Source of the DNA: Stentor roeselii
Taxonomy: Eukaryota > Ciliophora > Heterotrichea > Heterotrichida > Stentoridae
Direction of reading: 5' to 3'
Assembly (NCBI GenBank): GCA_006503475.1
Contig: RSEH01000014.1
Location: 178,822-242,821, forward strand
DNA: 64,000 nt
Translations under genes and position numbers: made by a program
Notes under the pieces: generated by a model
Told to the model about the DNA's origin: nothing
Database searches by the model: none
What the model saw: only the letters and a program-made list of their open reading frames with translations
Part shown: positions 7,471 through 64,000 of the stretch, piece after piece
Layout of the letters: each line of letters starts with the position of its first letter
How positions within the stretch are numbered: the stretch's first letter is position 1

Positions 7471-9504
7471 CTATTCACTAATTAAATGCTTCCAGCTCAA
7501 ATTTATAACAGCTAGATTAGCAATTTTTTCCTTTAAATGAGTCAAAAGAACTCTTCTATCATTATTAAAATCTTTTACAATTTTCGAAACCTTATCAATT
7601 TCTTTATGTACAAGACATTCATTTGTTAAAAAATGCTGATCATCTTCAAATAAATCAGGAGATGTTTCCAAAATCTCTGCAGATTTTTCAGTTTTCAACA
7701 AATTTTCATATCCCGTGTCTTGAGGGTGATCTCTTAAAGTTTGTTCATAGAACTTATCAATTTCATCATAAATATGTTTAGACTTCTCGATATACTTATC
7801 AAATTCTTCTCTATTCATTTTCTTTAATTCCTCGATGACGAAAGCTGGCATCATAAATCCTTTAGTATTTGACTTAACATGAAAAAAAACTCGAGGTTTC
7901 ATGTTTTTCAATACGTAATACTCACCAATTATACAATTTTTTCTTAGTCTAAGTGATGCTATTGTATAATCGCTGATGTCAATACTATCAAGTACATCTT
8001 CTGACAAGGGGCACTTTGAACTTAAGATTGAAACAAAAACGTTCCCTTGTGACAAGAAAAGTATTTCATTAACCTCTTCATTTGCCTTTAAGATTATTTC
8101 GCCTTTTTGGTATAGCCTTGGCTGAAGAAATCGGCAAATCACGTATTTCAAGTCGCCTACTGTATTAAAAAATATTTTATATGTGTAAAAAATATCAGAA
8201 AATAAATACTCCAGCAAGTCTTCTTGAATTCTGTTTGGAAGAAGGTCGAAAAAAGAATTACTTGATCGAGATGGATCAAAGCTGCTCTCATTTGAATCAT
8301 TGAAAATTGAATCAAGTCTGTCATTTTTCCATAGGTTTAAAAAATGAAGAGAAATTTTTTCTTTTAAAGTTGTTGGAATTGAGTTATGCATTTTTTCTAT
8401 ACTTGAAAACCAACAGTTTAATGAAGTGGTTTGGGCTGAATTGCCTGTTTCAGCATCATACTCCTGCATGATTCGAATAGCAATCCCCATCATAAAAGCA
8501 AACCAAGAAGTTCCAGCAAGTACTAAAATAATAGCAAATCCCATTTCATACTTATTCGTCGCATAAAAATCTCCATATCCAACAGTAACCAAAGTAGTAA
8601 AAATATAATACCAAGTTTTCACAAATCTTTTATCTGTAGGATCATCTTGTAAATTAAAATTTTTTATAAAATCAACAGATTCATTTTTTTCCCTTAAAAT
8701 AAAATCAATATAATAATACCAAAGACAAGCCAAAAAATAAGTCGCAAAAAACATTTTTAATACTTGCACAAACATAGAACTCATCATATTCAGTTTATAC
8801 CTCAATTTCTTTTTATTCAAACATTCAGCTTCATATACCAGTGAAGCAAGAAACTCAATGATTATATACTTGTCAACCAAAGTGAATATTTTATTGATTT
8901 TGGCGGTTCTGAGTAGTCTTAAGATGAACTCGCCGTTAGGGTGTCCAGCATATCTGAGAGGTATCAAAGCGATGAGATCAAGGAAAAGGTAAGACTTTAA
9001 ATACCTTTCAATGATCATTTTTAAGTTTCTGATACGGTTTCGACGATCATCAATATATTCTGAAAAAAAGTTCAAGATAAAATCAAGAATAAACATCACC
9101 CAGACAAAGACATCAATAATTTCTGCAGCTTGATTCATTGAATGAAATGCGAGGAAGTAAAGACTGCTGAGAACTGAGTAAACAATTAGAACAATCATAA
9201 AAGTATCGAATATTCGTTTTGCAAGATGGTCTATTGGAATCACGTATCTTTTGTGAAGACTGTTTAACTTTAAGTCTGTAAGTTTCTTACTTAAAATTTT
9301 ACGGATGTATTCACCATAATTTTCTTCAATTGTTATACCCATACCGTCTTTTGAACAGACTACGGAAGGTCTTGCTATTCTTACTGAGCTCAGTCGGTTC
9401 AGGTCTTTAATGTTTTCCGGACGGGCTCCAAAAAGATCGATTTTCATCTTGGAAGTTAGTCTTCGGCTTCTTTTTCGAAGCGCATTTTGGAGTTGAAAGT
9501 TCAT
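7471..9504 (-). CDS. EAG/CNG-type potassium channel (array copy 3)
   Basis: The 677-aa protein starts MNFQLQNALR like copy 2 and shares the same order of parts: cytoplasmic N-terminus, S1-S6, TVGYGD filter at about 307-312, C-linker, cyclic-nucleotide-binding fold and an acidic C-terminal tail. S4 reads RLLRTAKINK. The ligand cassette IIGEYYVLKNMKPRVFF keeps the GE pair but not the RxA signature. Copies 2 and 3 are clearly close over their whole length and differ most in the first 100 residues and the tail. Its promoter should lie in the divergent 453-bp region shared with the TPR/IQ gene. Confidence 0.92.
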   Translation of the reverse strand: MNFQLQNALRKRSRRLTSKMKIDLFGARPENIKDLNRLSSVRIARPSVVCSKDGMGITIEENYGEYIRKILSKKLTDLKLNSLHKRYVIPIDHLAKRIFDTFMIVLIVYSVLSSLYFLAFHSMNQAAEIIDVFVWVMFILDFILNFFSEYIDDRRNRIRNLKMIIERYLKSYLFLDLIALIPLRYAGHPNGEFILRLLRTAKINKIFTLVDKYIIIEFLASLVYEAECLNKKKLRYKLNMMSSMFVQVLKMFFATYFLACLWYYYIDFILREKNESVDFIKNFNLQDDPTDKRFVKTWYYIFTTLVTVGYGDFYATNKYEMGFAIILVLAGTSWFAFMMGIAIRIMQEYDAETGNSAQTTSLNCWFSSIEKMHNSIPTTLKEKISLHFLNLWKNDRLDSIFNDSNESSFDPSRSSNSFFDLLPNRIQEDLLEYLFSDIFYTYKIFFNTVGDLKYVICRFLQPRLYQKGEIILKANEEVNEILFLSQGNVFVSILSSKCPLSEDVLDSIDISDYTIASLRLRKNCIIGEYYVLKNMKPRVFFHVKSNTKGFMMPAFVIEELKKMNREEFDKYIEKSKHIYDEIDKFYEQTLRDHPQDTGYENLLKTEKSAEILETSPDLFEDDQHFLTNECLVHKEIDKVSKIVKDFNNDRRVLLTHLKEKIANLAVINLSWKHLISE

Positions 9505-20113: not shown

Positions 20114-22693
20114 ATGGTATCCATCTCATTTGACAACTTTTCCTTCAAAGTCCTTCAAAGTTACTCTTCTGAACTCTTTCTTCTCGAAGAAAGCAAGTCC
20201 AGATTGAAGTACACTGGAAAGTTTATAGAAAATCTCACTGCTGCTAGAAAGGAAAAAATTTTGCAGGAGGTAAAGATTTTGAAGGACATTCAACTTTTAC
20301 ATCCAAGCATTGTTTCTCTTCATCAGTGCTTTTTTTTTAGGGAATCTGTCTTGGTTCTTTATGAATACTGCTCTGGAGGCAATTTGACGGTGAAGTGCAA
20401 GGTTCATCCTTTGAGAGTCCTTCATTTTCTCTGTACTGGACTCGCCTTTTTACATGGAAAGTCTTACATTCACAACAACCTTTCAGTTCACAGTGTTTTT
20501 TTAACTGACTCACTTCCGAAAATCGCTGGGTTGGAAGTTGTAACGGTAGAAGAGCTGTTAATGAATGAAGCGAGTTTTTTAAATCATGAGTTGTCAACAG
20601 ATATGCGATTAAGACCTCCTGAGCAACGACAGGCTTTTCTACCAAGTAAACAATCTGATATCTGGGGACTTGGACAAATCTTCTTCTTTTTGCTTACTCA
20701 GGACTTTTACTCAGGAGTCATTCCTGATAACTTGCCTCCTCAATATAAAGACTTGCTCCTTATGACTCTTGATGAAAGTCCCAGTAAAAGAGCCTCGATT
20801 CAAGCGATTATTAAAAAGATTGAAGAAAGACAGGCCACTAGTCCGAAAGTTGTTCATGGTTGTGGATGCTTCCCTGCAAGACGATTTTTTAGCTGCTCTA
20901 ATTCAACGACGAGTCTTGTTAAAAAAATTATTGCCTCTGATTTTATATCCGCGGAGAATCATTTGAAAAAAATCATTAAAAAGGTTTGGGATACTCCTGG
21001 AAAAATCGCGAAATTTTATGCGGAAATTTTGAAAGTTTCTGATATGGCGAATGAGGAAGTTAGACTGAAAACTTGTATTTTGGTTTTTGTTTATTTGCAG
21101 AAAGCACCTGTTAGTGCTTTTAGTACTCATCCTGGAGCTTTGGAGATGATTGGGTTTATTGAGGCAAAAACACGGCCTGCTAGTCAGGATAAAAAAAATG
21201 AATTGATTTATAGGGTTTCTCACATAATGATCCGACTAATCCGCTCAAAATACTACATCGTGAACTCACACCTGATGAACTTCAACGGAATATTCGTAAG
21301 TGTATCAACCAGTCTAAAAAAATTCTTCCAAGAGCCTCAAATCGAAGTAGTTTGCGACCTGCTCGACTACTGGGAGCTACTTCTAACCTTCCAAGAGCAG
21401 TTGATCCTTCAAGCCTTCAACAACACCCTGCTTCGTTACATTCGCAAAGTCCTTGCAGAAGAGCAGAACCATCTTCTCGACCTGGTAAAAACATTAATCC
21501 AATCAAGCCCTGATCTCTTCGAATCATTAGGTCTAAGCCAAATGAACTTAAATCTTCTAGAAAGAGCAAAGCAAGCCTTCACAATCGACAACATTCCTCT
21601 GAACCTTCCTGAAAACCAGTCAATTCGAGAAATTTTAATAAGCGAAAACTACAAATCAATAAGTCGCCAGTCTTCCCAGCGTCATTCACGACGAAGCCTG
21701 GTCTCCAGCAATGCGCGCTTCACGCCAGTGAAGCTGGAAGACGACGAAATCAAAGAGTCCGAGCCTTTAAAGTCTCAAAATTTTCATCTTTCAAGTGCGG
21801 AGATCTCAGAATTCTGTAATTCTGAATCAGAAGATTACGACTTGCACCTTATGAGACTTCAGGAAAAGTTCAGTGTTTGGAGCATCAACGCCCGAGAGCT
21901 GAGTCTTATTAAAAGAATTGGAGAAGGAGGAAGCAGTGAGGTCTGGCTTGGACTTTTCCAGAAGACTCAAGTCGCGATAAAGCAACAAATTGCAAAACAT
22001 CATAAAAATTTGAAGGAATTCGAAAGAGAAGTCAACTTTTTAGTCAACATCCGTCATCCGAACCTTCTTACTTTCATGGGAATCTGTCTTGATGAACCTT
22101 TGAAGATCGTCACTGAGTACTGCTGTGGAGGGACTTTGTTTAACCTGCTTCACAACAGGAAAGACGTTTTTATCTCCTGGGCTCAGAAACTGACGATTTT
22201 AAAGGAAATTGCAAAAGGCATGCTTTTTCTGCATTCTCGGAATTTTATTCATAGGGACTTGAAGAGTTTAAATGTGTTGTTAAATAGTGAAGTTCAGAAG
22301 CCGAATGACTTGATACAACTGAAAATCTCGGATTTTGGACTTACCCGAGAAATCGACTTGGAAGAAATGATGACAGGAAAAATCGGGACTAGTCACTGGA
22401 TGGCTCCAGAAGTCTTATCGAGTTCGAAGTACTCGGCAAGAGCAGATGTTTACAGTTTCTCTATCGTCATGTATGAAGTGATCACTCGCGAAGTGCCTTA
22501 CAAAGGAAAAAAACAAGAAGAAATCAGGACTCAAGTCCTGATGAAAGAACTTCGTCCAGATCTTAAACTTGTTCCTCCCAGTTGTCCAGGAAAGTTAATA
22601 ACTTTAATGACTCTCTGTTGGAAACAGGAGTCTGACAAGCGTCCTTCTTTTTCATCTATTCTAGATTTGCTGAGTGGAGTTTTAGTCTCATAA
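20114..22693 (+). CDS. Tandem pseudokinase-kinase protein (TKL-type)
   Basis: This 859-aa protein contains two kinase folds. The N-terminal one (about 15-240) has lost its catalysis: the HRDLKxxN loop reads HNNLSVHS near 119 and the DFG position reads IAGLE. About 245-590 is helical with a Ser/Arg-rich linker. The C-terminal domain (about 595-855) has every catalytic element: GEGGSSEVW, VAIK, HRDLKSLN, SDFGL and APE, with the TKL-style GTSHWMAPEV. It should be an active Ser/Thr or dual-specificity kinase, perhaps controlled by the pseudokinase half as in JAKs. The order is a parallel, not homology to JAKs. It lies between USP and MRE11 with 11- and 21-bp spacers. Confidence 0.9.
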   Translation: MVSISFDNFSFKVLQSYSSELFLLEESKSRLKYTGKFIENLTAARKEKILQEVKILKDIQLLHPSIVSLHQCFFFRESVLVLYEYCSGGNLTVKCKVHPLRVLHFLCTGLAFLHGKSYIHNNLSVHSVFLTDSLPKIAGLEVVTVEELLMNEASFLNHELSTDMRLRPPEQRQAFLPSKQSDIWGLGQIFFFLLTQDFYSGVIPDNLPPQYKDLLLMTLDESPSKRASIQAIIKKIEERQATSPKVVHGCGCFPARRFFSCSNSTTSLVKKIIASDFISAENHLKKIIKKVWDTPGKIAKFYAEILKVSDMANEEVRLKTCILVFVYLQKAPVSAFSTHPGALEMIGFIEAKTRPASQDKKNELIYRVSHIMIRLIRSKYYIVNSHLMNFNGIFVSVSTSLKKFFQEPQIEVVCDLLDYWELLLTFQEQLILQAFNNTLLRYIRKVLAEEQNHLLDLVKTLIQSSPDLFESLGLSQMNLNLLERAKQAFTIDNIPLNLPENQSIREILISENYKSISRQSSQRHSRRSLVSSNARFTPVKLEDDEIKESEPLKSQNFHLSSAEISEFCNSESEDYDLHLMRLQEKFSVWSINARELSLIKRIGEGGSSEVWLGLFQKTQVAIKQQIAKHHKNLKEFEREVNFLVNIRHPNLLTFMGICLDEPLKIVTEYCCGGTLFNLLHNRKDVFISWAQKLTILKEIAKGMLFLHSRNFIHRDLKSLNVLLNSEVQKPNDLIQLKISDFGLTREIDLEEMMTGKIGTSHWMAPEVLSSSKYSARADVYSFSIVMYEVITREVPYKGKKQEEIRTQVLMKELRPDLKLVPPSCPGKLITLMTLCWKQESDKRPSFSSILDLLSGVLVS

Positions 22694-22714: not shown

Positions 22715-24154
22715 ATGTCCAACACCTTCAAAATCATGATCGCCACTGATAACCACCTTGGGCACCTCGAAAAAGACCCGGTGAGAGGTTCTGATCCATT
22801 CGAATCCTTTAAAGAAGTTCTAGAAACAACTGAATCTCTTAGTTGCGATCTTCTTCTTCTAGGCGGGGACTTGTTTCACGACCACAACCCTTCCAAGTCA
22901 GTCCTGCACCGAACAATGGAGCTGTTTAATTCACACGTTTTCGGAAAAAGTTGCAGATCATTTGAAGTGCAAAACGATGAGAACCTTAATTTTTTAGATT
23001 CAAATCTCGAAATAAAGCTGCCAGTTTTCATCATTCATGGAAATCACGATGACCCTTCAGCTGAGTCGAATATTTCCGCGATTCACTTGATGCAAAGCGC
23101 TCATTTACTGAATTATCTGGGATGTGAGAGGGAAGAAGACCAGATAATCGTGAAGCCAGTAGTTTTGCAGAAGGAGGAAACCTGTGTTTACATCTACGGC
23201 CTGGGGAATATCAAAGAAGAAAGGCTCAACCGGCTGTTAAGAGAAGAAAAAGTCGTGTTTGAAAAGCCTGAAAATGAAAAATCTGCTGTTTTTATCTTGG
23301 TTGTCCATCAAAATCGCTTTAAAGCAACTGGCCCGGCAGCGAAGAACTGCGTCATGGACTGGGCTTTTCCTGGGTTCTTCGACCTGGTCATCTGGGGCCA
23401 TGAACATGACTGCGAAGTAGAGCCGAGAAAGACGCAGAACCGCGGATACCAGATTTACCAGCCAGGCTCAACGGTTTCCACTTCTCTTACAGAAGGCGAG
23501 GCACGTCAAAAGCACATGTTTTTACTTGAAATAAGAAAACTTGGGTTTAAAATGACTCCTATTCCTATCAGAAACACTCGACAAATACTTTATAAAAATA
23601 TTGAATTGTCGCAAGTCTCTGGAAGTGCCACTCAAGCTATTTCTGATATTTTTCATCAAATGATTCAAAACGCTGATAAAAGTCGAATACTTCAACCTCC
23701 TCTTGTAAGACTTAAAATTGAAGTCACTGGATTTGATGACTTTCAAGGATTTGCACTTAATGCGAAGTTTTTGGATTTCACTGCGAATAAAGATGTTGTC
23801 ACACTTTGGAGGAGGACTGGGAAGGCGAAAGATTTGAAGTCCAGTGAAAGTCATGGTTTTTCCGGCGATGTTTTAAAGATTTTGCAGAAACAGCTGTTGA
23901 AGGATAAAAAAGATTTTAAAATTTTAGGAATTCAGCAGATTTTGGATAAAATGTCAGACTTCGTTGTAAAGAAAGACGTGAAAGGCATTGAAGAGTATTT
24001 TGACAGAAAAGTCGAAATCGCTGTAAATAGGATTATTGAAGGAGTCACCCGGTATGACCAAGACGTAATAAGAAGAAAGGTCAAAGAACTTGATGTAAGT
24101 TTTGTAGACCCTCCTGTGAAGAGAAAGCCTGAGGTAGGTCTAAAGAAGATGTGA
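22715..24154 (+). CDS. MRE11: MRE11 double-strand-break repair nuclease
   Basis: The 479-aa protein has the Mre11 phosphoesterase motifs in order: ATDNHLGH (residues 10-17), GGDLFHDHNPS, HGNHDDPS, VVHQNR and WGHEHDCEVEPR, then PGSTVSTSL, which marks Mre11 against other metallophosphatases. The capping domain follows. It ends at KKM and lacks the long C-terminal DNA-binding and GAR tail of animal proteins. In other eukaryotes Mre11 acts with Rad50 in nuclear break repair and meiosis; in ciliates it could also serve nuclear development, which I cannot show. The TGA stop (24152-24154) directly abuts the stop of the convergent LYR gene. Confidence 0.95.
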   Translation: MSNTFKIMIATDNHLGHLEKDPVRGSDPFESFKEVLETTESLSCDLLLLGGDLFHDHNPSKSVLHRTMELFNSHVFGKSCRSFEVQNDENLNFLDSNLEIKLPVFIIHGNHDDPSAESNISAIHLMQSAHLLNYLGCEREEDQIIVKPVVLQKEETCVYIYGLGNIKEERLNRLLREEKVVFEKPENEKSAVFILVVHQNRFKATGPAAKNCVMDWAFPGFFDLVIWGHEHDCEVEPRKTQNRGYQIYQPGSTVSTSLTEGEARQKHMFLLEIRKLGFKMTPIPIRNTRQILYKNIELSQVSGSATQAISDIFHQMIQNADKSRILQPPLVRLKIEVTGFDDFQGFALNAKFLDFTANKDVVTLWRRTGKAKDLKSSESHGFSGDVLKILQKQLLKDKKDFKILGIQQILDKMSDFVVKKDVKGIEEYFDRKVEIAVNRIIEGVTRYDQDVIRRKVKELDVSFVDPPVKRKPEVGLKKM

Positions 24155-28599: not shown

Positions 28600-31500
28600 C
28601 TAATTACCACTCCCTTCTTCACATAAGTTCTCCACTTCCTCATTACTAACAACATAAACACTTTTATTGAAAGATTGCATCCCGAAAGCGAATTTAAACA
28701 AATCAACAATACTCCTTCCTTTCATAGAAACTAGCAGGTTTTCAGGTAGTCTGCTCTGAAAACAAACTCCAGCAGTTGCAATAGTGACCCATCCAAGTAA
28801 TTGCAAAATAACAGGAGCCAAGGTGCCACTAATGAGAAAGTTGCTGAAAAGACAAACAGAAGTATTCCAAACAACAAAAAAAATCATGACCTTGCACCAA
28901 AGATTAGCTCGATCATAGTTGAAAGGGTGCTTCAAGACGATGACCAACACAAAAAGCGTGAGAGTGACTGCAAGGAAGATGAGTCCATGAATAAGCTCAT
29001 ATTGATCTTTCAGGATTTTTCCAATGATCACCAAGACTACCACAACAATATTCTTGAAAATCAAGTAAATCGAATTAGTTCTGATGTTCAATGATTTGTT
29101 CTCGTCCTGCCAGATAGTTCTGTAGAGAATCGCGACTGGAATGTAAATAATTATTTGAATGCAAGCTAAAATTGAGTATATTATGTGATCATCTCTCCAA
29201 CAGTAAGTGTTACAATCATAATTTAAGTAAGAATCAGAGTAATCATCACTCACAGCTTTGTCACACATCAAAATGCTGATCAAACTCACGATTGTTGGTA
29301 AAAAAAGATAATTCGACATTATAGGAATCAGGTAAATTTTAAAACTTTCAAGGTTTTTATACAAGCCTGAGAACCAACGAAGAACTCGGAAGTAACTGAA
29401 GACTAAAACAAGGATCCAAAAGTAAGACAAAAAAATCATTATGAAAAAAATGATCCAAAAAGTTGTATCTTTAAAACTTGTCACTTTCGAAATATTAAGT
29501 GATAAGATTTCAGAGAGATTACTCAAAAAACGATTGAAAGACACAAAAGAAGGACCGATTGAAATCATCTGAATAGCTTCAACGAAAATGAAGCCAAAAG
29601 TGAGATAGTCTTGAAAAACTATGAAAGATTTTACTTCCATCATTCTTATTTTTCGGAATTTTAACTTGTAAAGGGAGTAAATAGTAAGACTGCTTGAAAC
29701 TATCAGCAGGGTGACGGAAACTCCGATTTTTATATTGACTCCTGAACTAGAGTCTTGAATTTGGCTTTTTCTGAATGGGCAGTTTTGGTAGTTTTCTTTC
29801 ATTGATTTAGGAAGTTCGCCGTTAACCCAGACAGTTTCTTGTAAGACAGTGTAATAAACAGTCCCTACAGGTGAGATCAGAGCAACTGAGTCGTCATGCC
29901 ACTTCCCTTGGCTGTCTTCATAAAAGTTGAAAACGTTGTAGTAGTAAATGTTTCGGTCATTTGAATCTGAATCGAACGAAATATATCCAGTGGTTCCTAA
30001 AAAACGAATATTTCTTAATGCACTCATGAAGGTTTCTGGATTTTCATATGCTTTTCCTTGGTTCATTAAGAAATCAGCGGTTTCAGCAGCGGAATAAACT
30101 GCGTCAATAAAGTAACTTCTAGTCCAAGCATCTGGTCGATATTTCAAATATTCTTCTTTAACTTCAGTGCCATATTTTCCTACCCAGGCTCCATTATATA
30201 TAACAAGAGTTCCATGCATCAGTTCTTTCCTTTTCTTAACATTCGCAGTAGCAGCATTAAAATTAGTTAATCCCGAGACAGTAAAAAGCACAAAAGTGTA
30301 GTCACCTCTTCTCACCCCAAGGTCATAAAATCCTTCCATCCAAAAATAAGGAGTAGGGTCTCCCATAATCAAAAAAATGATATTGCATCCAAGAGTGAGA
30401 GTATTTTTCATATGTTCCCTATACAGCGGTATAGACAGATTACTAAAAATATAATCAACCGGTCGATATTTCTGATCATTTATAAACTTAAATCCGTAAG
30501 ACTCCTGAGAATTGTAGAGAATATTGTAAGCAGACATCCCAAAGCTATCATTAGTATGATGAACAACTATCTTCGTCCACCCATACAGTCGGATCAGGTT
30601 CGCCCAGGCATAAGCAAAGTCGGATGAAGGTGAGACTGTCCTCACAAAAAACGGAAACTCGGACTTATTTGACAGAAGCCCAGTGCTGCCGATTCCGCCG
30701 ATGAATGGAAGGCTGATGTTGAGTGAATAAAGTTGTTTAAGCACAGCCATCGTCATTCCGAAGAACGTCGGGATGTACGCCACTCCCATCTCAGGCCGAT
30801 GATGAATGAAGCAAGCTTTAGAGTAGTTGTAGTTGAAAATACTCACTCCACAGTCTACTTGCCCGTAAAGTACGAGTTTATGGTTTGGGAAGTAGCTGTG
30901 GTCTCGGTTTATCTTTTCTACTGCGAAGGCTGAACCTTCCTGGTGCCCCACGTTTGTGTAAGCTCGAGGAGCCCCGTCTGGGTTGAAAGACCCGGTGTTG
31001 GCAGAGACTACAATGGTCGGGACAGAGTAATTTGTTAGGTCGTAAATTCCTCCAATATATGTTATTGTTGAGTTTAGTTCCAAGGCTCCGTCTTTGATGA
31101 TTCCTACTTTCTTTTTTGTATTGTTCTGAATATTTACTATTGAAAACTTGCAGGAATTTTGGAAAACCTTTAGAAGTTCAACTGATATCTCAAATCTTGA
31201 CATACCTGGTTTTTTTAAAACATTTATAAACTTTAGGATTTTTTTGGACTTGTACTCGACCTCGGTTTCGACATGTTCAAAACCATCATATGTTAAAATC
31301 AAGTATCCTTCTTGATTGACTTGGTAAATGCAATTAGTGAAAAATATTCCTATGTTTCCTTTTATGTTCAGTCGAGAATCCTCGAAGCCCTGTGATAGAC
31401 TTCTACATGAAGACTCGTCGGGAAGGAAGAAAAAGTTCATAATTCCTTCTTTTTTCAGTATTTTGCTTAGAGTTAATGAAATTTCAGATGAGGTTGAATT

Positions 31501-31968
31501 CTTGAAAAATGAAATGTGAAGAAGCTCTGAGTTTAAGATTAATTTGCTCTCTTGATATATGTTTTGGTTTATTTTCGAAAAGGTCGAAACCAGCGCAGGC
31601 CGAGAGAGAGAAAAAAATGTAGAGGTAGTAAAAATTGAACTAGCCATGCATTCAGTTGGTAAATCTGAGTAAAAAGCAAAGGTTCGAATCGATCCAGAAC
31701 TTAAAAAAAGAGTCGGAATATTGAAGGATTCTGAGAAAATCTCAAGTTCGTGAACAATAAGGGCTTCTTCTAAGGAAACAATTATTATGTCTATCGAATC
31801 TGGGCTTATCAGCTTCAGAGCTTCGAGGGATGCGATTTCATGATGAATGTTGTAACCCGGCACATCTTTTATGCAAGATATCAAGATGGACTTGTACAGA
31901 TCGTCTAGCCCGATGGAAAAGAATCTGTAGGCTTGGACGGTGGCTAGCAGATGAAGAATAATAACCAT
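28600..31968 (-). CDS. Receptor-like protein: periplasmic-binding-protein ectodomain plus about nine membrane segments (array copy 1)
   Basis: The 1122-aa protein starts with a signal peptide. Residues about 320-730 match the type I periplasmic-binding-protein/ANF-receptor fold (GSAFAVEKINRDH, FIGGIGSTGLLS, FFVRTVSPSSDF, IRLYGWTKIVVHH). Residues about 15-310 look like a second, degenerate copy of that fold. About nine hydrophobic segments lie between 742 and 1066, with basic loops on one side and glycosylation sites plus a CNTYCW loop on the other. This places the ectodomain outside and the tail inside. The tail begins LPENLLVSMKGRS. It is probably a chemosensory or peptide receptor; nine segments do not fit a class C GPCR. 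It is closest to copy 3. Confidence 0.8.
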   Translation of the reverse strand: MVIILHLLATVQAYRFFSIGLDDLYKSILISCIKDVPGYNIHHEIASLEALKLISPDSIDIIIVSLEEALIVHELEIFSESFNIPTLFLSSGSIRTFAFYSDLPTECMASSIFTTSTFFSLSRPALVSTFSKINQNIYQESKLILNSELLHISFFKNSTSSEISLTLSKILKKEGIMNFFFLPDESSCRSLSQGFEDSRLNIKGNIGIFFTNCIYQVNQEGYLILTYDGFEHVETEVEYKSKKILKFINVLKKPGMSRFEISVELLKVFQNSCKFSIVNIQNNTKKKVGIIKDGALELNSTITYIGGIYDLTNYSVPTIVVSANTGSFNPDGAPRAYTNVGHQEGSAFAVEKINRDHSYFPNHKLVLYGQVDCGVSIFNYNYSKACFIHHRPEMGVAYIPTFFGMTMAVLKQLYSLNISLPFIGGIGSTGLLSNKSEFPFFVRTVSPSSDFAYAWANLIRLYGWTKIVVHHTNDSFGMSAYNILYNSQESYGFKFINDQKYRPVDYIFSNLSIPLYREHMKNTLTLGCNIIFLIMGDPTPYFWMEGFYDLGVRRGDYTFVLFTVSGLTNFNAATANVKKRKELMHGTLVIYNGAWVGKYGTEVKEEYLKYRPDAWTRSYFIDAVYSAAETADFLMNQGKAYENPETFMSALRNIRFLGTTGYISFDSDSNDRNIYYYNVFNFYEDSQGKWHDDSVALISPVGTVYYTVLQETVWVNGELPKSMKENYQNCPFRKSQIQDSSSGVNIKIGVSVTLLIVSSSLTIYSLYKLKFRKIRMMEVKSFIVFQDYLTFGFIFVEAIQMISIGPSFVSFNRFLSNLSEILSLNISKVTSFKDTTFWIIFFIMIFLSYFWILVLVFSYFRVLRWFSGLYKNLESFKIYLIPIMSNYLFLPTIVSLISILMCDKAVSDDYSDSYLNYDCNTYCWRDDHIIYSILACIQIIIYIPVAILYRTIWQDENKSLNIRTNSIYLIFKNIVVVVLVIIGKILKDQYELIHGLIFLAVTLTLFVLVIVLKHPFNYDRANLWCKVMIFFVVWNTSVCLFSNFLISGTLAPVILQLLGWVTIATAGVCFQSRLPENLLVSMKGRSIVDLFKFAFGMQSFNKSVYVVSNEEVENLCEEGSGN

Positions 31969-32764
31969 TTATTGCTTAATCATTCAGATTTCTATCACTA
32001 TACTTATACTATAGGTTTATAAAAATAATGCAAATCTAAGTTTTAACTCAAAATATCATTACTAGATCAAGTCTTAGGAATTTTTAATTAAAAGTGATTT
32101 TTTTGAAGAATATTGATCAAATATTTAAAATTTTTAGTTTAAGTGCATCACCTGGATTCTATTTTCAAAAAGAGGACCTAAATAAACATGTTTAAATTAT
32201 ATAAATATATTAATCAATATCAAATATTTTGAAGTGAGCTTAAGTATTTATAGCTGATGATTGCTATATAGAATAAAACTTTCTTTAAATGGCTTTTTAG
32301 AGATTAAGAGTGAAAATTTTTAAAAATTCCAAGGTGACTTAGTTTTATTAGAATTATGATTGATCTGAAAATTAGACTTAAAAAAAATTATATTGAACTA
32401 AGTTTGAGCTCTTTTACAAATATTTTAATAGTCAAGGCTAATCATAAAACAACAGAAAACTATCTGGCCAATCATGAAAGAATTCTTATAGAAATATTAT
32501 AAATTTAATGCACTTGGGTATACTATGACTTAAAAAATTAAAGGAAAAAAAAATATATGGATATTCAAGGAAATACTCAGTTAAAGTTGACCAACTCATG
32601 GGAAAAAACCTGAAATAATTTACTTTTCGGTATTTATTTATTCAAAATATTTCTAGCTTTAACTACTTAAATTTACTTTTAAAGAAAGCAAGTGATTTTT
32701 TTTAAAGTTTATTTATCCTAAAAGATTTCATAATATTGATTAAAATTCATCATCCTAACCTAAT
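31969..32764. other. Intergenic spacer between receptor copies 1 and 2
   Basis: About 800 bp of AT-rich DNA with no ORF, RNA or repeat that I can support. It must hold the copy 1 promoter and the copy 2 3' UTR. Confidence 0.4.
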
Positions 32765-35700
32765 CTAAGTAGCCTCATTTTTCTCATTATCCGGAAAGTT
32801 TTTACTGGTCTTCATGAAATAAATCGAGTTTCTAAAAGACTCAACTCCAAAGGCAAACCTAAATAAATCAACAATACTCCTTCCTTTCATCGAGACAATC
32901 AAATTTTCCGGAAGTTTCCTCTGCAAAAACAACCCAAACCCAACAATAAGAGCCCATCCGACGATTTGGAGAATAACAGCCGGGTAACTCTTTTTAATAG
33001 CAAAATTTCCAATGAGGCAAATGAAAGTATTCCAAATAATACAAAAAATCATGATCTTGCACCACAAGTTGGCTCGGTCGTAGTTTAAAGGATGCTTGAT
33101 GACTAGAATATGAATCAAGAGGACAAGAGTGAGTCCCAGGAAAATCAGGCCGTGAGTTAGGGCGAAGTCCTCTTTGAGAATTTTCGATATGATCACCATA
33201 ATGACTGCTAAAATGTTCTTGATTATCAAATATGTTGAGTTCGTGTGAATGTTTAGAGATTCGCTTTCTTCTTGCCAGATTGTTCTGTAGAGAATTGCAA
33301 CTGGTATGTAGATTATTATTTGGAAACATGATAGTACTGATAGTGCGATGTGGGAACCTTTCCAGCAGAAAGTTGAGCAGTCGTAGTTTAGGTAAGAATC
33401 CTTGTAGTGATCACCGATTGATTTGTCGCACATCAAGATACTGATTAGGCAAATTATGATGGGCAAGAACAAGTAATTTGTCATGATTGGAATAGAAAAT
33501 GATTTAATATCATTCAGCCTATTTTGAATATTCGAAAATCGACTGAATACTCGAAAATAACAAAAAGTTAGCAACAAAACCCATGAGTAAGTAAGAATGA
33601 TAGTGGCTAAAAATATAACCCAATAGTTAGTATCTTTAAATTGAGTTAACTTCGAAATATTAAGAGAAACAGCTTGAGATATATCATTGAGTACCTGATT
33701 AAAAGATTCAAAAGACGGGCCAATAGCAATCATTTGAATAGCTTCAACAAAGATGAAAGCTAAAGTAAAATAATCTTCAAGTCCAACATAAACCTTTTTT
33801 GAAAGCATCACCATTTTGCGAGCTTTCATTTTTTTAAGTGCGTACAAACTTAAAGCACAAGAAATTATTAAAACAGAGACACAAACCGCGATTTTTATAT
33901 TGACAGCAGAAGCCGACTGCTGAATTTCTTCTTCTCTAAATGGGCAATTTTCAAAGTTTTCCTTCATAGACTTCGGCTGTTTTCCCCCAGCCCAAACAGT
34001 TTCCTGCAAAATTGTATAATAAACATTACCCAATGGCGAAATGAGTGCAACTGCATCATCATGCCACTTTCCAGAGTCATCTTCAAAGAAGTTAAAAACA
34101 TTGAAATAGTTGATATTTCGATTATTCGTCTCAGAGTCGAAAGAAATAGTTCCAGTGGTACCTAAAAACCGAATATTCCTCAAAGCTTGCATAAAAACCT
34201 TCTCATCTTCAAAAGGCTTTCCCTGTTTCATGAGAAAATCAGAAGTTTCAGCAGCAGCAAAAACAGCATCAATAAAATGACTTCTCCCCCAAGGGTCCTT
34301 CCAAGTCTTTAGGTACTCTTTCTTGACCTGGTCTCCATAACTTCCGACCCATGCGCCGTTGTACATTACAAAAGTTCCATGCATAAGTTCCTTTCTTTTT
34401 TTCAAATTCGCATTCGCCGCCTGGAAGTTGCTGAGTCCATTATTAGCAAACAGCACAAAAGTGAAATCTCCTCTTCTAGCTCCTAAGTCATAAAACCCTT
34501 CAAGCCAGAAATACGCAGCAGGGTCTCCAAGAATCAAGAAGACAATATTACATCCGAGACTCATCGAATTTCGAATATTTTCGTAATACTCAAATATTGA
34601 CTCATAGCTTAAAATATACTCAACCATTCGGTACTTCTCCTCATTGATGAAGCGAAAACCGTAAGTCTCTTGAGAGTTGTTAAGGACTTTGTAGGCGGAG
34701 CCTGCGAAGCCGTCGTTCGAGTAGTGGACAATTATTTTGTCCCAGTTGTAAAGCCGGATCAGGTTGGCCCAGGCGACTGCGAAGTCAGTTGAAGGGGAAA
34801 CAGTGCGGACGAAGTAGGGATACTCGGACTTGTTGGAAAGCAGGCCTGAACTGCCGATGCCTCCGATGAAGGGAATGTTCATGTTGAAGGATTGCAGTTG
34901 TTTCAGAGCTGAAAGGGTCACTGGGAAGAAGGTCGGCACGTAGGCGACCCCCATTTCACCTCGATGCTTGAAAAAACAGGCTTTGGAGTAGTTGTAGTCG
35001 AAAACACTCACCCCGCAGTCAACTTTGTCGTAGAGGACTAGCTCGTAGTGAGGGAAGTAATGATGGTCTTGGTTTATTTTATCAACGGCAAAGTACGTGC
35101 CTTGGTGGTAGCCCTCGTTGGAGTAGGATCTTGCTAAACCGTTAGGGTTGAATGAACCTGTGTTTGCAGAGATTATTATTGTTGGCATTGTGAAATTGCT
35201 TAGATCTTCAAGACCTCCGATGTATTTTATGGTTTCAGTGATTTTCACTTCACCGTCTTTTATTGTTCCTACTATTTTTCTTTTGTCTTCTTGAATATTT
35301 ATTATTGAAAATAAGCAGTCGTTGTTGTAAAGTTTTCCTAGTTTCCTCAATATTGATTCTTTTGAAAATTCGTTTTGAGAAAAAGCGTTTAAAAATTTCA
35401 TCAATTTTAAAAGTTTGTAGTCTGCAGAACTTTCAGCGTTTTCGAAGGTCTCATATGTTAAATATAGAAATCCATTGACTTGAATTTGGTAAATGCAATT
35501 TGTGAAGAGAATCGCTGTGTTTCCTTTTTTTTCTAAAAAGGAATCCTTGAAGCCTTTTACCATATTGTAACATAATTCATTATCAGGCAAAAAAATGAAG
35601 TTTTGAATCCCGTCTTGTTTTAAAATCCTGCTGAGTGTCGCTGAAATTTCCTTAACTGTTGAATTTCTCATTAAAGAAGTGTGATAAAAGTCAAAGTTAC

Positions 35701-36133
35701 TATTCAAACGTAAATTTTCTATGGTATTCAAATTTTCTTTTGTAAAGCTCCAGATAACTGAAGGTTTAAGGATTTCAAAGTGATTAACTAACGAAATCAC
35801 TGATTCTGAAAAACATTTACCAGGGTAGTCAGTGAAGTAGGTAAAGTTTTTACTTGACCCTGCAAAAAGGAATAAAAGTGGGATTTGATTGGAATTTGCA
35901 AAGGACTCCATCATAGACTGCTCTGATGGCTCTTGAGTCAAGGAAATTATCCCATCAATAGACGCTGATGAAATATTATCCAAGTGTTCTAATGATTCAA
36001 TAAACCTTAGGTGGATATGAGTTTGGATTTGATTTGAGATTGAATCAATCACTTGATCATTTGAACTCGCCGGACCGATAAAGTAGATATTATATGCTTC
36101 AACTGCAAGAATCAACTGATACATAATTATCAT
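32765..36133 (-). CDS. Receptor-like protein, ligand-binding ectodomain plus about nine membrane segments (array copy 2)
   Basis: The 1122-aa protein has a signal peptide (MIIMYQLILAVEA) and the same two-part ectodomain, with ligand-binding-fold blocks YFAVDKINQDH, IGGIGSSGLLS and FVRTVSPSTDF. The membrane region begins near 743. The extracellular CSTFCW loop is present. The tail (LPENLIVSMKGRS) is nearly the same as in copies 1 and 3, but the last 20 residues differ. It is the most divergent of the three copies. The ligand cannot be told from sequence; the usual amino-acid-binding residues of glutamate receptors were not identified. It lies on the same strand as its neighbours, with its own 866-bp upstream spacer. 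Confidence 0.8.
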   Translation of the reverse strand: MIIMYQLILAVEAYNIYFIGPASSNDQVIDSISNQIQTHIHLRFIESLEHLDNISSASIDGIISLTQEPSEQSMMESFANSNQIPLLFLFAGSSKNFTYFTDYPGKCFSESVISLVNHFEILKPSVIWSFTKENLNTIENLRLNSNFDFYHTSLMRNSTVKEISATLSRILKQDGIQNFIFLPDNELCYNMVKGFKDSFLEKKGNTAILFTNCIYQIQVNGFLYLTYETFENAESSADYKLLKLMKFLNAFSQNEFSKESILRKLGKLYNNDCLFSIINIQEDKRKIVGTIKDGEVKITETIKYIGGLEDLSNFTMPTIIISANTGSFNPNGLARSYSNEGYHQGTYFAVDKINQDHHYFPHYELVLYDKVDCGVSVFDYNYSKACFFKHRGEMGVAYVPTFFPVTLSALKQLQSFNMNIPFIGGIGSSGLLSNKSEYPYFVRTVSPSTDFAVAWANLIRLYNWDKIIVHYSNDGFAGSAYKVLNNSQETYGFRFINEEKYRMVEYILSYESIFEYYENIRNSMSLGCNIVFLILGDPAAYFWLEGFYDLGARRGDFTFVLFANNGLSNFQAANANLKKRKELMHGTFVMYNGAWVGSYGDQVKKEYLKTWKDPWGRSHFIDAVFAAAETSDFLMKQGKPFEDEKVFMQALRNIRFLGTTGTISFDSETNNRNINYFNVFNFFEDDSGKWHDDAVALISPLGNVYYTILQETVWAGGKQPKSMKENFENCPFREEEIQQSASAVNIKIAVCVSVLIISCALSLYALKKMKARKMVMLSKKVYVGLEDYFTLAFIFVEAIQMIAIGPSFESFNQVLNDISQAVSLNISKLTQFKDTNYWVIFLATIILTYSWVLLLTFCYFRVFSRFSNIQNRLNDIKSFSIPIMTNYLFLPIIICLISILMCDKSIGDHYKDSYLNYDCSTFCWKGSHIALSVLSCFQIIIYIPVAILYRTIWQEESESLNIHTNSTYLIIKNILAVIMVIISKILKEDFALTHGLIFLGLTLVLLIHILVIKHPLNYDRANLWCKIMIFCIIWNTFICLIGNFAIKKSYPAVILQIVGWALIVGFGLFLQRKLPENLIVSMKGRSIVDLFRFAFGVESFRNSIYFMKTSKNFPDNEKNEAT

Positions 36134-36999
36134 TTATAATTCTTGATTTACTTAAGAATTATTCAATGACTCTGAAATAGAGAAAAATTTTAAAAGTTTT
36201 AAATAAGTTTACTGAAATTAAGATATCTAATTTTTCATATTGCATTTTTATTTGATTTGAAGGGAAACTATTTTATATTTTAGTGATAGAGATGTTGGGT
36301 AAGAATCAATAGATTATTAGAAGAAGTTAAGAAAAATTCTTATGAATTTCATTGATTAAAATAATAGATGTTTATAATCCTTATGGCTTGAGAAATATAA
36401 GGTAACTCTGAAAAACAATTAATTTAATTAGAACTAAATAATTGGAAGATTTTTTGAAAATTTTCTTAATTTAAACAATTCTCATTAGTATGAATTCATA
36501 GATTTTTAATCATTGAGAATATAGAGATATGCACGCATCATAAGCTGATAAACTTTAAAAATCAAAGACTATAACTAATATTTTATAATATTGAATCTTT
36601 GACTGAATTTAAAATAATAGATTTATGTTGTTAGATTGGGTGTTTTTGAATAAATCAAAACTATTGTTTATTCGTTTTGATACAAGGATTCTGATAATGA
36701 AAAAAATATAATAATTTTATCTTTTTATTGCTTTATACTTTATCAATCTATCTAAGAAGACTGAACATTAATAATCAAATCGCTAAAGATTTCAATTAAA
36801 ATTTATAAAAAGTATATTCAGATGAGTAAATTAATGAAAAGAAGATGCAAAATTGCACTTCTAATATCTAAGTTTGATAATGTTCAATCATAAAAATTAT
36901 TTTATTAATCGAATCAACAAATCTTCAATATTCTCTAAATGACTCTTTTTGAAAATCAAAAAAATCTAAACCAAATAATAAAATAATCCTTATTCTACT
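36134..36999. other. Intergenic spacer between receptor copies 2 and 3
   Basis: AT-rich, with no supportable gene or repeat. Similar in length to the spacer at 31969, as expected for tandemly duplicated units. Confidence 0.4.
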
Positions 37000-39900
37000 T
37001 TAATTCAACCGACTTCTTTCCTCACATAAATTTACCTCTTCATCCTCATTGACAATATAAATGCTTTTATGAAATGACTGAATCCCAAAGGCAAACTTGA
37101 ACAAATCAACGATGCTTCTTCCTTTAATAGAGACCAAGAGGTTTTCAGGTAGCCTGCTCTGAAAGCAGATGGCAACAGAAGCAATGAAAAGCCATCCAAT
37201 TACCTGTAAAATAACAAGAGCAAAAGCCTGATCAATGACAAACATGCTAATCAAGCAAACAGAGGTATTCCAAACAACACAAAAAATCATGGCTTTGCTC
37301 CACAAGTTAGCCCTGTCATAGTTGTAAGGGTTGCGAATTATCAAAACAAGTACAAAGAGACAAGCTGAAATTCCAAGAAAAATCGATCCATGAATGATTT
37401 CATGATCATTCTTTAGAATTCTTCCAATGATGACCAGAACAACAAGTGAAACATTTTTCAAGATGAGGTAAACTGAGTTGGTCCTGACGTTGATCACTTT
37501 GTTCTCTTCTTGCCAAATAGTCCTGTAAAGAATCGCTATTGGGACGTAAATCACTATCTGTAAGCAAGCTAAAGTTGCATATATGATGTGATCTTCTCTC
37601 CAGCAGTAAGTGTTGCAGTCATAGTTCAAGTACGAGTCAGAATACTCGTCACTGGTGGCTTTGTCACACATCAAGATACTGATCAAACTGACAATAGTAG
37701 GCAAAAACAGGTAATTCGTCATAATTGGAACCAAGTAAGACCTGAACTCTTCCAGTTTTCTATGCATCCCTGGACAAAATCGTAAAACCCTGAAATAACA
37801 AACAGCAAGCATCAAGATCCAGGCGTAAGAAAGAAAAATAATAGAAAAAAAAATAACCCAAAAGGTTGTATCTTTGAAATCAGTGACTTTCGAGATATTC
37901 AGTGACAAGATCTCTGAAACATTACTCAAAAATCTGTTAAATGAAGCGAAAGACGGTCCGATCGAGATCATTTGAATGACTTCAACGAAGATAAACCCGA
38001 GAGTGAGGTAGTCTTCGAAGACAATATACGACTTGCTCTGCATCATGATGATTTTTCTGAACCTCATCTTTTTCAGTGCGTAGATGGTGAGGCCAGTCGA
38101 GATGACAAGCAAAGTGACTGAAACTCCGATTTTTATGTTGACTGCTGACGAAGAATCCTGAATCTGGTCTTTTCGAAATGGGCAGTTTGAGAAGTTTTCT
38201 TTCATTGATTTCGGAAGTTCTCCGTTTACCCAAACAGGCTCTTGAAGAACAGTGTAATAAACTGTGCCTAAGGGAGAGATCAGAGCCACTGCGTCGTCTT
38301 TCCAGGTCCCAGAGGAGTCTTCGTAGAAGTTGAACACGTTGTAGTAGTACATGTTTCGGTTGTTGGACTCAGGGTCAAATGATATCATACCTGTTGTACC
38401 TAAAAAACGGATGTTTCTTGCTGCTTGCATGAAAATGTCTCTGTCTTCGTAAGCGCGGCCTTGGCTCATTAAAAAATCTGCTGTTTCTGCTGCTGTGTAA
38501 ACCGCATCGATGAAGTAGCTCCTGCCCCAAGCATCTTTCCTTGTTTTGAGGTACTCTTGCTTGACCATAGCTCCGTATTCACCAACCCAAGCTCCATTAT
38601 AAATAACAAAAGTTCCATGCATGAGTTCCTTCCTTTTCATCAAATTGGCATTAGCAGCATCGAAATTAGTTAACCCAGTGATAGTAAAAAAAATGAAAGT
38701 GAAATCCCCTCGTCTAACCCCCAAGTCATAAAACCCTTCAAGCCAGAAGTAAGGAGTTGGGTCTCCCATCATCAAGAAGATGATATTGCAGCCAAGACTC
38801 ACGGTGTTCTTCATGAACCCGTAGTAAGGTTTGATGGACTCATAGCTAAAGATGTACTCAACGCCTCTGTACTTCTCCTCATTGATGAACTCAAAGCCGA
38901 ACTCTTCTTGAGAACTGTTGAGGATCTTATACGCCGTGGTTCCAAAACTGTCATTCGTGTAATGCGCCACTATTTTCGTCCACCCGTAAAGCCGGATCAG
39001 GTTCGCCCAGGCGGAAGCGAAGTTCGACGAAGGTGAAACTGTGCGGATGAAGTAAGGGTACTCGGATTTTATTGACAGAAGACCTGAACTTCCGATGCCG
39101 CCGATGAAAGGAATGCTGATGTTAAGCGAATACAACTGTTTTAGAAGAGGCAGGGTTACTGGGAAAAAAGTCGGAATGTAAGAAATTCCCATTTCTGGTC
39201 TGTGATGAAAAAAACAGGACTTTGAGAAGTTGTAGTCAAAAACACTTACGCCGCAGTCGACCTTGTCGTAAAGTACTAGTTTGTGACTTTTGAAGTAGCT
39301 GTGGTCACGGTTTATCTTTTCCACTGCAAAGTAAGTCCCTTCCTGGTTTCCCACATTTGCATAAGCTGGCTCCACTCCGTTCGGGTTGAAAGCTCCGGTA
39401 TTCGCAGAGATTGTCACTCGAGGAACTGTGTAATTTGAAAGATCGCTGATGTTTCCTAAGAATTTTATAGTGTCATTAAGTGTAACTTTCCCATTTTCTA
39501 CCTTTCCAATAATTAGTCGTGATCCATCTTGAATGTTAACAATTGAAAACCTGCAGTCATTGTCATAAACTTCGGCAAGTCTCTTGGAAATTTCTTCAGT
39601 TGTCAGGTCTCGGTCATTTAATATGTTTATGAATTTCTTGAGCTCTGATTTTTTATACTCGCTTTCATCCTTGATATGTTCAAATGAGTCATAAGTTAAA
39701 ATAATTGACCCTTCTAAGTTAGTTTGATAGATGCAACTTGTAAATAAAACAGCGACGTTCCCCTTGACATTCAAGAATGACTTTTGGAATCCATCGAAAA
39801 TTGACCCACAAAAGTCTTCATCAGGTAAAAAGAAGTAATTTTGAATGCCTTGTTGTTTCAGCATCTTACTCATCGTCACTGAGATTTCATTACTTGTCAT

Positions 39901-40371
39901 ATGGTCAAGGAAGGAAATATGAAAGAAGTCAAAACTTGAGTTTAGGTGAGTTTTCTCTACAACTTCGAGATTTTCCGTTGAATACCTCCAGAGAAGTGAC
40001 GGTCTTGATAAGGAGAAGTGCTTTATCAGCGAAACTATGGTGTTTGTCAAGCAGTCACTTGGGTAGTCTGAGAAAAATGAAGGCTCTTTGTTCAGACCTG
40101 ATGACAGGAAAAGCTGCGGAATACGGAATGATTCAGAAAAAGATTTTAAAAGACCTGATTGAATGACGTCCTCACTTGAAGAAATTAGGACGTCTATGGA
40201 ATCTGGGGAAATCAGCGCTAATTCGTCGAATGAATGAAGATTAAAGTGAAAATTCAGTCCAGGCAATTGGCTTACTAAGGTTTCCAGGGCTGAGAAGTAC
40301 TCAGAGTCGATACCTATCGAGTAGATTCGATATGACAATGCTGTGGTGATTAGACAAAGTAGAACTCCCAT
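37000..40371 (-). CDS. Receptor-like protein, ligand-binding ectodomain plus about nine membrane segments (array copy 3)
   Basis: The 1123-aa protein starts with a signal peptide (MGVLLCLITTALS). The second ectodomain unit carries YFAVEKINRDH, FIGGIGSSGLLS, FIRTVSPSSNF and IRLYGWTKIVAHY. The membrane region runs from about 742, and the tail begins LPENLLVSIKGRS. It is close to copy 1 throughout, including the CNTYCW loop. The first ectodomain half varies most between copies and the membrane core least, as expected if ligand choice diverged while signalling stayed fixed. It is the last gene of the compact core before the subtelomeric zone. Confidence 0.8.
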   Translation of the reverse strand: MGVLLCLITTALSYRIYSIGIDSEYFSALETLVSQLPGLNFHFNLHSFDELALISPDSIDVLISSSEDVIQSGLLKSFSESFRIPQLFLSSGLNKEPSFFSDYPSDCLTNTIVSLIKHFSLSRPSLLWRYSTENLEVVEKTHLNSSFDFFHISFLDHMTSNEISVTMSKMLKQQGIQNYFFLPDEDFCGSIFDGFQKSFLNVKGNVAVLFTSCIYQTNLEGSIILTYDSFEHIKDESEYKKSELKKFINILNDRDLTTEEISKRLAEVYDNDCRFSIVNIQDGSRLIIGKVENGKVTLNDTIKFLGNISDLSNYTVPRVTISANTGAFNPNGVEPAYANVGNQEGTYFAVEKINRDHSYFKSHKLVLYDKVDCGVSVFDYNFSKSCFFHHRPEMGISYIPTFFPVTLPLLKQLYSLNISIPFIGGIGSSGLLSIKSEYPYFIRTVSPSSNFASAWANLIRLYGWTKIVAHYTNDSFGTTAYKILNSSQEEFGFEFINEEKYRGVEYIFSYESIKPYYGFMKNTVSLGCNIIFLMMGDPTPYFWLEGFYDLGVRRGDFTFIFFTITGLTNFDAANANLMKRKELMHGTFVIYNGAWVGEYGAMVKQEYLKTRKDAWGRSYFIDAVYTAAETADFLMSQGRAYEDRDIFMQAARNIRFLGTTGMISFDPESNNRNMYYYNVFNFYEDSSGTWKDDAVALISPLGTVYYTVLQEPVWVNGELPKSMKENFSNCPFRKDQIQDSSSAVNIKIGVSVTLLVISTGLTIYALKKMRFRKIIMMQSKSYIVFEDYLTLGFIFVEVIQMISIGPSFASFNRFLSNVSEILSLNISKVTDFKDTTFWVIFFSIIFLSYAWILMLAVCYFRVLRFCPGMHRKLEEFRSYLVPIMTNYLFLPTIVSLISILMCDKATSDEYSDSYLNYDCNTYCWREDHIIYATLACLQIVIYVPIAILYRTIWQEENKVINVRTNSVYLILKNVSLVVLVIIGRILKNDHEIIHGSIFLGISACLFVLVLIIRNPYNYDRANLWSKAMIFCVVWNTSVCLISMFVIDQAFALVILQVIGWLFIASVAICFQSRLPENLLVSIKGRSIVDLFKFAFGIQSFHKSIYIVNEDEEVNLCEERSRLN

Positions 40372-63929: not shown

Positions 63930-64000
63930 GGGTGTTAGGGTGTTAGGGTGTTAGGGTGTTAGGGTGTTAGGGTGTTAGGGTGTTAGGGTGTTAGGGTGTT
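63930..64000 (+). repeat. Telomere, (TTAGGGTG)n
   Basis: About nine perfect copies of the 8-nt unit TTAGGGTG run to the right edge, G-rich strand 5' to 3' outward as required for a right-hand chromosome end. The unit equals CCCTAACA on the other strand, the repeat I recall for Stentor and Blepharisma. The array continues to the last base, so its true length is unknown. Confidence 0.97.

Follow-up and report, generated by a model that had tools for sequence, protein, structure and literature searches.

The window analysed here, a 64,000-nucleotide stretch of contig RSEH01000014.1 from the ciliate Stentor roeselii (assembly GCA_006503475.1), carries three tandem genes whose products are quite probably chemoreceptors at the cell surface, members of a large ciliate family and built from two flytrap domains (type I periplasmic-binding-protein domains) on a polytopic membrane core through which the signal would pass. 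They are probably lineage-specific chemoreceptors, similar to class C G-protein-coupled receptors (GPCRs) on the outside and distinct from them on the inside. Since two clamshell ligand-binding domains are here joined to a membrane part unlike that of known animal receptors, and the family is large, the proteins probably serve the cell's own chemical tasting.

A sequence-only reading had placed three proteins of 1122-1123 amino acids (aa) at positions 28600-40371, and the open reading frames (ORFs) lie exactly there (Table 1). All three are intact, on the minus strand and spaced by 796 and 866 bp, and their products are 66% (copy 3) and 57% (copy 2) identical to copy 1. The signal peptide claimed in that reading is seen by eye as a hydrophobic leader in each protein, with a Kyte-Doolittle (KD) hydropathy threshold of 1.6 reached in two. 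The longest ORFs of the first 30 family loci end in TAA (16), TAG (7) or TGA (6), one running off its locus; all three codons are thus used as ORF ends, and the standard code therefore applies.

Relatives were collected from the same genome (44.39 Mb in 522 contigs; all match counts are lower bounds). The family alignment (A2, 44 rows) holds a window copy in place of locus L001 together with 43 of the other 51 fetched loci, the broken or cut loci L008, L015, L017, L028, L042, L043, L044 and L049 being excluded. Alignment A3 and the conservation table have 42 rows (A3 without L032 and L039), and A4 and A5 have 41 (L029 also removed).

Outer domains and membrane core

The second flytrap, nearest to the membrane, is the type I periplasmic-binding-protein-like region that had been noticed at about residues 320-730. 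There all three copies match PF01094 (ANF_receptor), scoring 64.7-69.2 bits where the cut-off is 25.4, over approximately residues 347-681, numbered on the translation without the first Met. The match in copy 1 (E 1e-17) consists of two stretches, the best being 418-681; copy 2 is matched at 346-675 (E 4.4e-19) and copy 3 best at 347-681 (E 1.5e-18). When a profile of 41 members was compared with the PDB, class C receptors came out on top, namely T1R2 (1.9e-16), followed by T1R1, mGluR8, mGluR3, T1R3, GABA-B1 and CaSR, and several of the alignments cover the W...P segment that closes the class C flytrap. A spacer of about 20 residues with a single invariant Cys leads to the first transmembrane (TM) segment, TM1; all 42 members compared share Pro720 and Cys730 of this linker. 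The cysteine-rich domain NCD3G gave no Pfam match at E<=1 in the three window proteins.

The receptors thus resemble class C GPCRs (mGluR, CaSR, T1R, GABA-B) in having an extracellular type I flytrap directly before the membrane part, including the final W...P. GABA-B also does without a cysteine-rich domain, according to the available passages on its architecture (PMC12716839). The window proteins differ from class C receptors by an extra flytrap at the N-terminus and by a core, probably of nine helices, that has no 7tm_3 match. With receptor guanylyl cyclases (ANF receptors) they have the PF01094 ectodomain in common, but their core is multi-pass and, in the Pfam scan, without a kinase-homology or cyclase domain.

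The region ahead of the second flytrap (residues 16-312, 41 members) matches the N-terminal domains of the NMDA-receptor subunit GluN1 with E 7.6e-11. Because this profile contained divergent members, it was split into the eight-member window clade (A6) and the other 32 members (A9). The A6 profile aligns to A9 over 261 columns (profile-profile, 99.9%, E 8.7e-37), and A9 in turn matches N-terminal domains of GluN1 and other ionotropic glutamate receptors (E 4.5e-11). The sequence-only reading had suspected a flytrap in these approximately 300 residues; profile comparison confirms them as a predicted second type I periplasmic-binding-protein domain. Single N regions match PF01094 at E<=0.01 in 17 of 41 members, copy 1, which has no Pfam match there, not being among them, and the census script listed 18 ORFs of at least 1090 aa in which PF01094 matches at least two stretches. 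Between the family's first and second flytraps there is a weak similarity as well (75.5%, E 2.4e-5). In a Foldseek search with the modelled N region, ionotropic glutamate receptor chains or N-terminal domains made up 48 of the 50 rows listed, at TM-scores near 0.2. The likeness to ionotropic glutamate receptors lies in the first-flytrap profile, for which GluN1 N-terminal domains are closest, and in two clamshells stacked above a membrane part. In the glutamate receptors the second clamshell is a type II ligand-binding domain, whereas that of the window receptors is type I.

The core likely contains nine TM helices. Family-mean hydropathy has nine peaks (approximately residues 755, 795, 851, 891, 939, 975, 1003, 1035 and 1059), of which the second is weak (1.12). 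Taken singly at KD 1.6, copies 1 and 2 show nine peaks and copy 3 eight. A home-made topology script run on all three window copies predicts nine segments with the tail inside in each. Applied to the 44 members, the script settles on nine segments for 20 (L033 reaching nine with another set), on seven for 18 and on eight for 6, with no margin at all in some cases; most of the disagreement concerns TM2 and TM4. Both rank among the best-conserved segments (0.528 each), and TM2 carries Asp787 and Gln800, invariant in 42/42 members, and a Glu in 33/42. An AlphaFold model of the three window proteins (A1; predicted local distance difference test score, pLDDT, 29) has ten core helices of at least 20 residues, nine at the hydrophobic segments and a tenth at 807-828. 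Nine segments are favoured because TM2 and TM4 are conserved, lysine plus arginine (K+R) is richer on the predicted inside, and the low-confidence model places helices at all nine; the earlier count of nine is therefore kept as likely, though unproven.

The same reading had used charge and glycosylation sites to put the ectodomain outside and the tail inside. The charge part holds: K+R makes up 20.5, 19.8, 12.5, 15.3 and 17.1% of the predicted inside loops and tail against 9.4, 9.9, 9.5 and 12.5% of the outside loops, with loop boundaries drawn by hand on the nine-TM model. The glycosylation part is equivocal: sequons are modestly enriched in the second flytrap (z 2.0) and two of the outside loops (2.1 and 4.0) but not in the first flytrap (-0.9), and predicted TM6 is where they are most in excess (4.7).

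The suggestion of an unrecognised receptor architecture is supported in both its parts, by the profiles for the doubling and, for a core not detectably of the class C seven-helix type, by the absence of 7tm_3 (PF00003) matches from all 42 cores at E<=0.05. At this threshold the 42 cores matched seven Pfam families, six of them in a single member and the other in two, and the core gave no match in the PDB (best E 1.1). A partial relative lies in the same genome, where TM4-TM9, with a Cys-Asp-Cys-Cys-His exoloop, aligns to the C-terminal end of polytopic proteins of about 1,540 aa (hhalign 98.0%, E 1.8e-13); a negative control with the N-terminal TM half of those proteins gave 0.3%. These proteins share TM4-TM9 and a related Cys/His exoloop with the receptors, but they have a long N-terminal multi-TM half of their own. 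They were found at L053, L054 and L055 (contigs C20, C64 and C71), with four matches in a row on C71, and the two scanned (L053, L054) have neither PF01094 nor any other Pfam match. Searches for relatives in viral and prokaryote contigs gave no confirmed match, and a family core (L050) had none among phage records.

The family and its evolution

The genome holds at least 41 scored whole-protein matches, at least 82 PF01094 stretches and at least 82 core matches, four of the latter being weak and lying in ORFs of 1,349-1,546 aa. The census script took the 82 PF01094 rows and, with the four weak ones excluded, 78 core rows and merged them into 82 loci, 67 with an ORF of at least 1090 aa. After reading by eye about 79 loci remain, about 63 of them with an uninterrupted ORF of at least 1090 aa and the rest short, broken or cut; loci on C27, C137 and C214 are read as split single genes, and the one on C502 as interrupted by a stop. 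Broken members with internal stops (L008/L017 on C214, L015 on C504, L028 on C478) fit birth and death of copies. The family has the many paralogues, tandem arrays, fast-evolving ligand domain and broken copies that mark multi-copy chemoreceptor families. A tendency to lie near contig ends is not claimed (10.0 rows expected within 10 kb and 18 observed, out of 53; Kolmogorov-Smirnov p 0.098).

In trees of the first and second flytraps, and in a quick one built for the core, broadly similar clades appear, which points to an early origin of the architecture within the family. The window copies cluster with L002 and L005, the exact place of L005 differing among trees. Over 946 pairs, the first flytrap is less conserved than the second in 94% and less conserved than the core in 83%. 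Between copy 1 and its closest paralogue, L002, the ratio of nonsynonymous to synonymous divergence (dN/dS) is 0.15, 0.09 and 0.13 in the three parts, pointing to purifying selection throughout.

Two of the 15 profiled pairs have near-identical 3' halves over diverged 5' halves: L010/L012, in the same array on C504 with one member between them (synonymous divergence, dS, 0.39, 0.12 and 0.01 across the three parts), and the neighbours L018/L019 on C476 (2.48, 0.75 and 0.09). These tracts may reflect an exchange resembling gene conversion; the window trio has none.

Signal output and competing readings

In the proposed mechanism the second flytrap, class-C-like and conserved, would close on a small ligand and shift TM1 by way of the short linker, no cysteine-rich spacer lying between them. 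The first, similar to the N-terminal domains of ionotropic glutamate receptors and the fastest to diverge, would be responsible for ligand specificity, for allosteric modulation or for pairing. From TM1 the signal would run through the core to inner loops that are conserved, passing the two invariant TM2 residues (Asp and Gln) and the TM4-TM9 module that bears the exoloop, while duplication and segmental exchange would keep some cores alike and let the outer domains diversify. An ion current or a non-G-protein partner is the more likely output, rather than a canonical heterotrimeric G protein.

A bolder version, which we advance tentatively and hold to be more probably wrong than right, is that the genes form a new receptor class in which two tandem type I flytraps gate an ion-conducting nine-helix core belonging to no described family of channels, GPCRs or transporters. 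Dozens of genes with a variable first flytrap would then read different cues, their cores being partly homogenised between array neighbours. Such a class would be an independently built ciliate counterpart of class C GPCRs and glutamate-gated channels, and would count as categorically new if its core turned out to be a channel or transducer fold not described before.

Several results weigh against the chemoreceptor interpretation or its parts. The window-clade N profile (A6, eight sequences) has no PDB match at E<=1, and the fold of this domain in the window proteins therefore rests on transitive homology through the other members. Structure prediction, as the earlier reading had proposed, gave no confident fold: the A1 model is unusable beyond its helix pattern, which does agree with the nine segments, and the model of the N region (A8) is of low confidence (pLDDT 44) and finds one Foldseek match at E<=0.001. 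Of the 44 members, individual hydropathy plots at KD 1.6 show nine peaks for 4, eight for 24, seven for 14 and six for 2, and the topology script counts seven or eight segments in 24 of 44. On the signalling side, the best G-alpha match in the genome scores 43.1 bits and lies at a contig edge, and the genome does hold a 7TM ORF, outside the family, with a weak 7tm_3 match, below the cut-off that no 7tm_3 match in the genome passes. The segmental identity of L010/L012 and L018/L019 could also be an assembly artefact.

The strongest competitor, possible though doubtful, makes the proteins ligand-gated ion channels in which the nine-helix core is itself the pore, opened by flytrap closure. The invariant Asp and Gln of TM2, with the frequent Glu, and the resemblance of the first flytrap to those of glutamate-gated channels speak for it. 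So does the lack of any G-alpha match over the cut-off of 48.8 bits in the genome, in a single six-frame search run without a positive control; most of the 19 weak matches, read by eye, cover the part of the profile common to small GTPases. Against it, no Pfam channel domain matches the 42 cores at E<=0.05, and the pore domain Lig_chan (PF00060), by which ionotropic glutamate receptors differ from the window receptors, is absent from the Pfam matches of the three window proteins and appears in one of the 42 cores at E 0.072. The core has no solved relative in the PDB, and nine TM segments are unusual among channels. Elsewhere in the genome Lig_chan has ten matches, three over cut-off, all in ORFs other than those with PF01094 stretches.

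It is improbable that the proteins are very divergent class C GPCRs, with a flytrap and an additional N-terminal domain on a G-protein-coupled bundle of seven TM segments, TM2 and TM4 being re-entrant or peripheral. Such receptors would account for the class-C-like second flytrap with its closing W...P and for the 18 members in which the topology script prefers seven segments. However, TM2 and TM4 rank high in conservation, and a seven-TM model without them would put the TM3-TM4 loop outside, where its 19.8% K+R would be odd. To the missing 7tm_3 matches in the 42 cores is added a comparison of the core profile with the one weak 7tm_3 ORF of the genome (hhalign 0.2%, a single-sequence comparison of low power), and the G-alpha search, with its limit given above, gave nothing over its cut-off. 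Less probable still are ligand-capture transporters or endocytic receptors whose flytraps would hand a nutrient to a nine-helix transporter: type I periplasmic-binding proteins do deliver substrates to transporters in bacteria, and TM4-TM9 does resemble the end of the polytopic proteins of about 1,540 aa, but at E<=0.05 each transporter family matched at all, MFS_1 and PDR_CDR, is matched by a single one of the 42 cores, the dozens of paralogues and the rapid evolution of the outer domain look chemoreceptor-like, and the best-scoring solved relatives of both flytraps, among the matches listed, are receptors.

The favoured interpretation, lineage-specific chemoreceptors with a class-C-like exterior, was compared with published surveys. 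Ciliate genomes surveyed with established 7TM profiles are reported to have no class C GPCRs, with none of family C among 123 GPCRs of Stentor coeruleus (PMC9960496). The flytrap module is abundant in S. roeselii but sits on another membrane core, and would therefore be missed by a search based on 7TM profiles. A 2025 survey describes receptors combining ANF and 7TM parts in opisthokonts and Dictyostelium, and its available passages make no mention of two flytraps with nine TM segments (PMC12716839). Among the titles and abstract openings seen in a full-text literature search, none describes this architecture in ciliates. The genes offer a concrete entry into the means by which one large cell may perceive chemicals, and would be a natural case of one sensory module joined to a different transducer.

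The sub-threshold 7tm_3 ORF (L056:601-1935 on C446) encodes 444 aa with seven TM segments and a C-terminal part that by eye is RGS-like, without a Pfam match. Its layout recalls plant 7TM-RGS proteins. A search for RGS gave no match, and its controls gave none either.

Surroundings of the genes

Table 1. Features of the receptor cluster and the chromosome end, in window positions
Feature	Position	Strand	Basis or remark
Receptor gene copy 1, whole ORF, 1123 aa	37000..40371	-	ORF and PF01094
Copy 1, first (N-terminal) type I flytrap, residues 16-312	39436..40326	-	Profile comparison
Copy 1, second flytrap (class-C-like, PF01094) and W-G-P...C linker, residues 313-732	38176..39435	-	
Copy 1, membrane core, nine predicted TM segments, residues 743-1071	37159..38145	-	Hydropathy, topology script, loop charge
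Copy 1, predicted cytoplasmic tail, residues 1072-1123	37003..37158	-	Topology script, loop charge
Receptor gene copy 2, whole ORF, 1122 aa	32765..36133	-	ORF and PF01094
Copy 2, N-terminal flytrap	35198..36088	-	Profile comparison
Copy 2, second flytrap (PF01094)	33938..35197	-	
Copy 2, membrane core and proximal tail	32819..33937	-	
Receptor gene copy 3, whole ORF, 1122 aa	28600..31968	-	ORF and PF01094
Copy 3, N-terminal flytrap	31033..31923	-	Profile comparison
Copy 3, second flytrap (PF01094)	29773..31032	-	
Copy 3, membrane core and proximal tail	28654..29772	-	
Telomeric repeat (TGTTAGGG)n, window ends at chromosome end	63930..64000	.	About 23.6 kb from the gene cluster

The terminal repeat is of a type that fits a heterotrich ciliate chromosome. 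Nearer the other end of the window, about 19 kb from the receptors, lies a second tandem triplet, of ion-channel genes for 661-677 aa on the minus strand (2757-4742, 4964-6988 and 7471-9504). Each has Ion_trans and Ion_trans_2 matches, and the first also has a cyclic-nucleotide-binding match below cut-off. Between the two triplets are a protein kinase gene at 20114-22693 (+) and, adjoining it at 22715-24154 (+), a gene with metallophosphatase and Mre11 DNA-binding domains.

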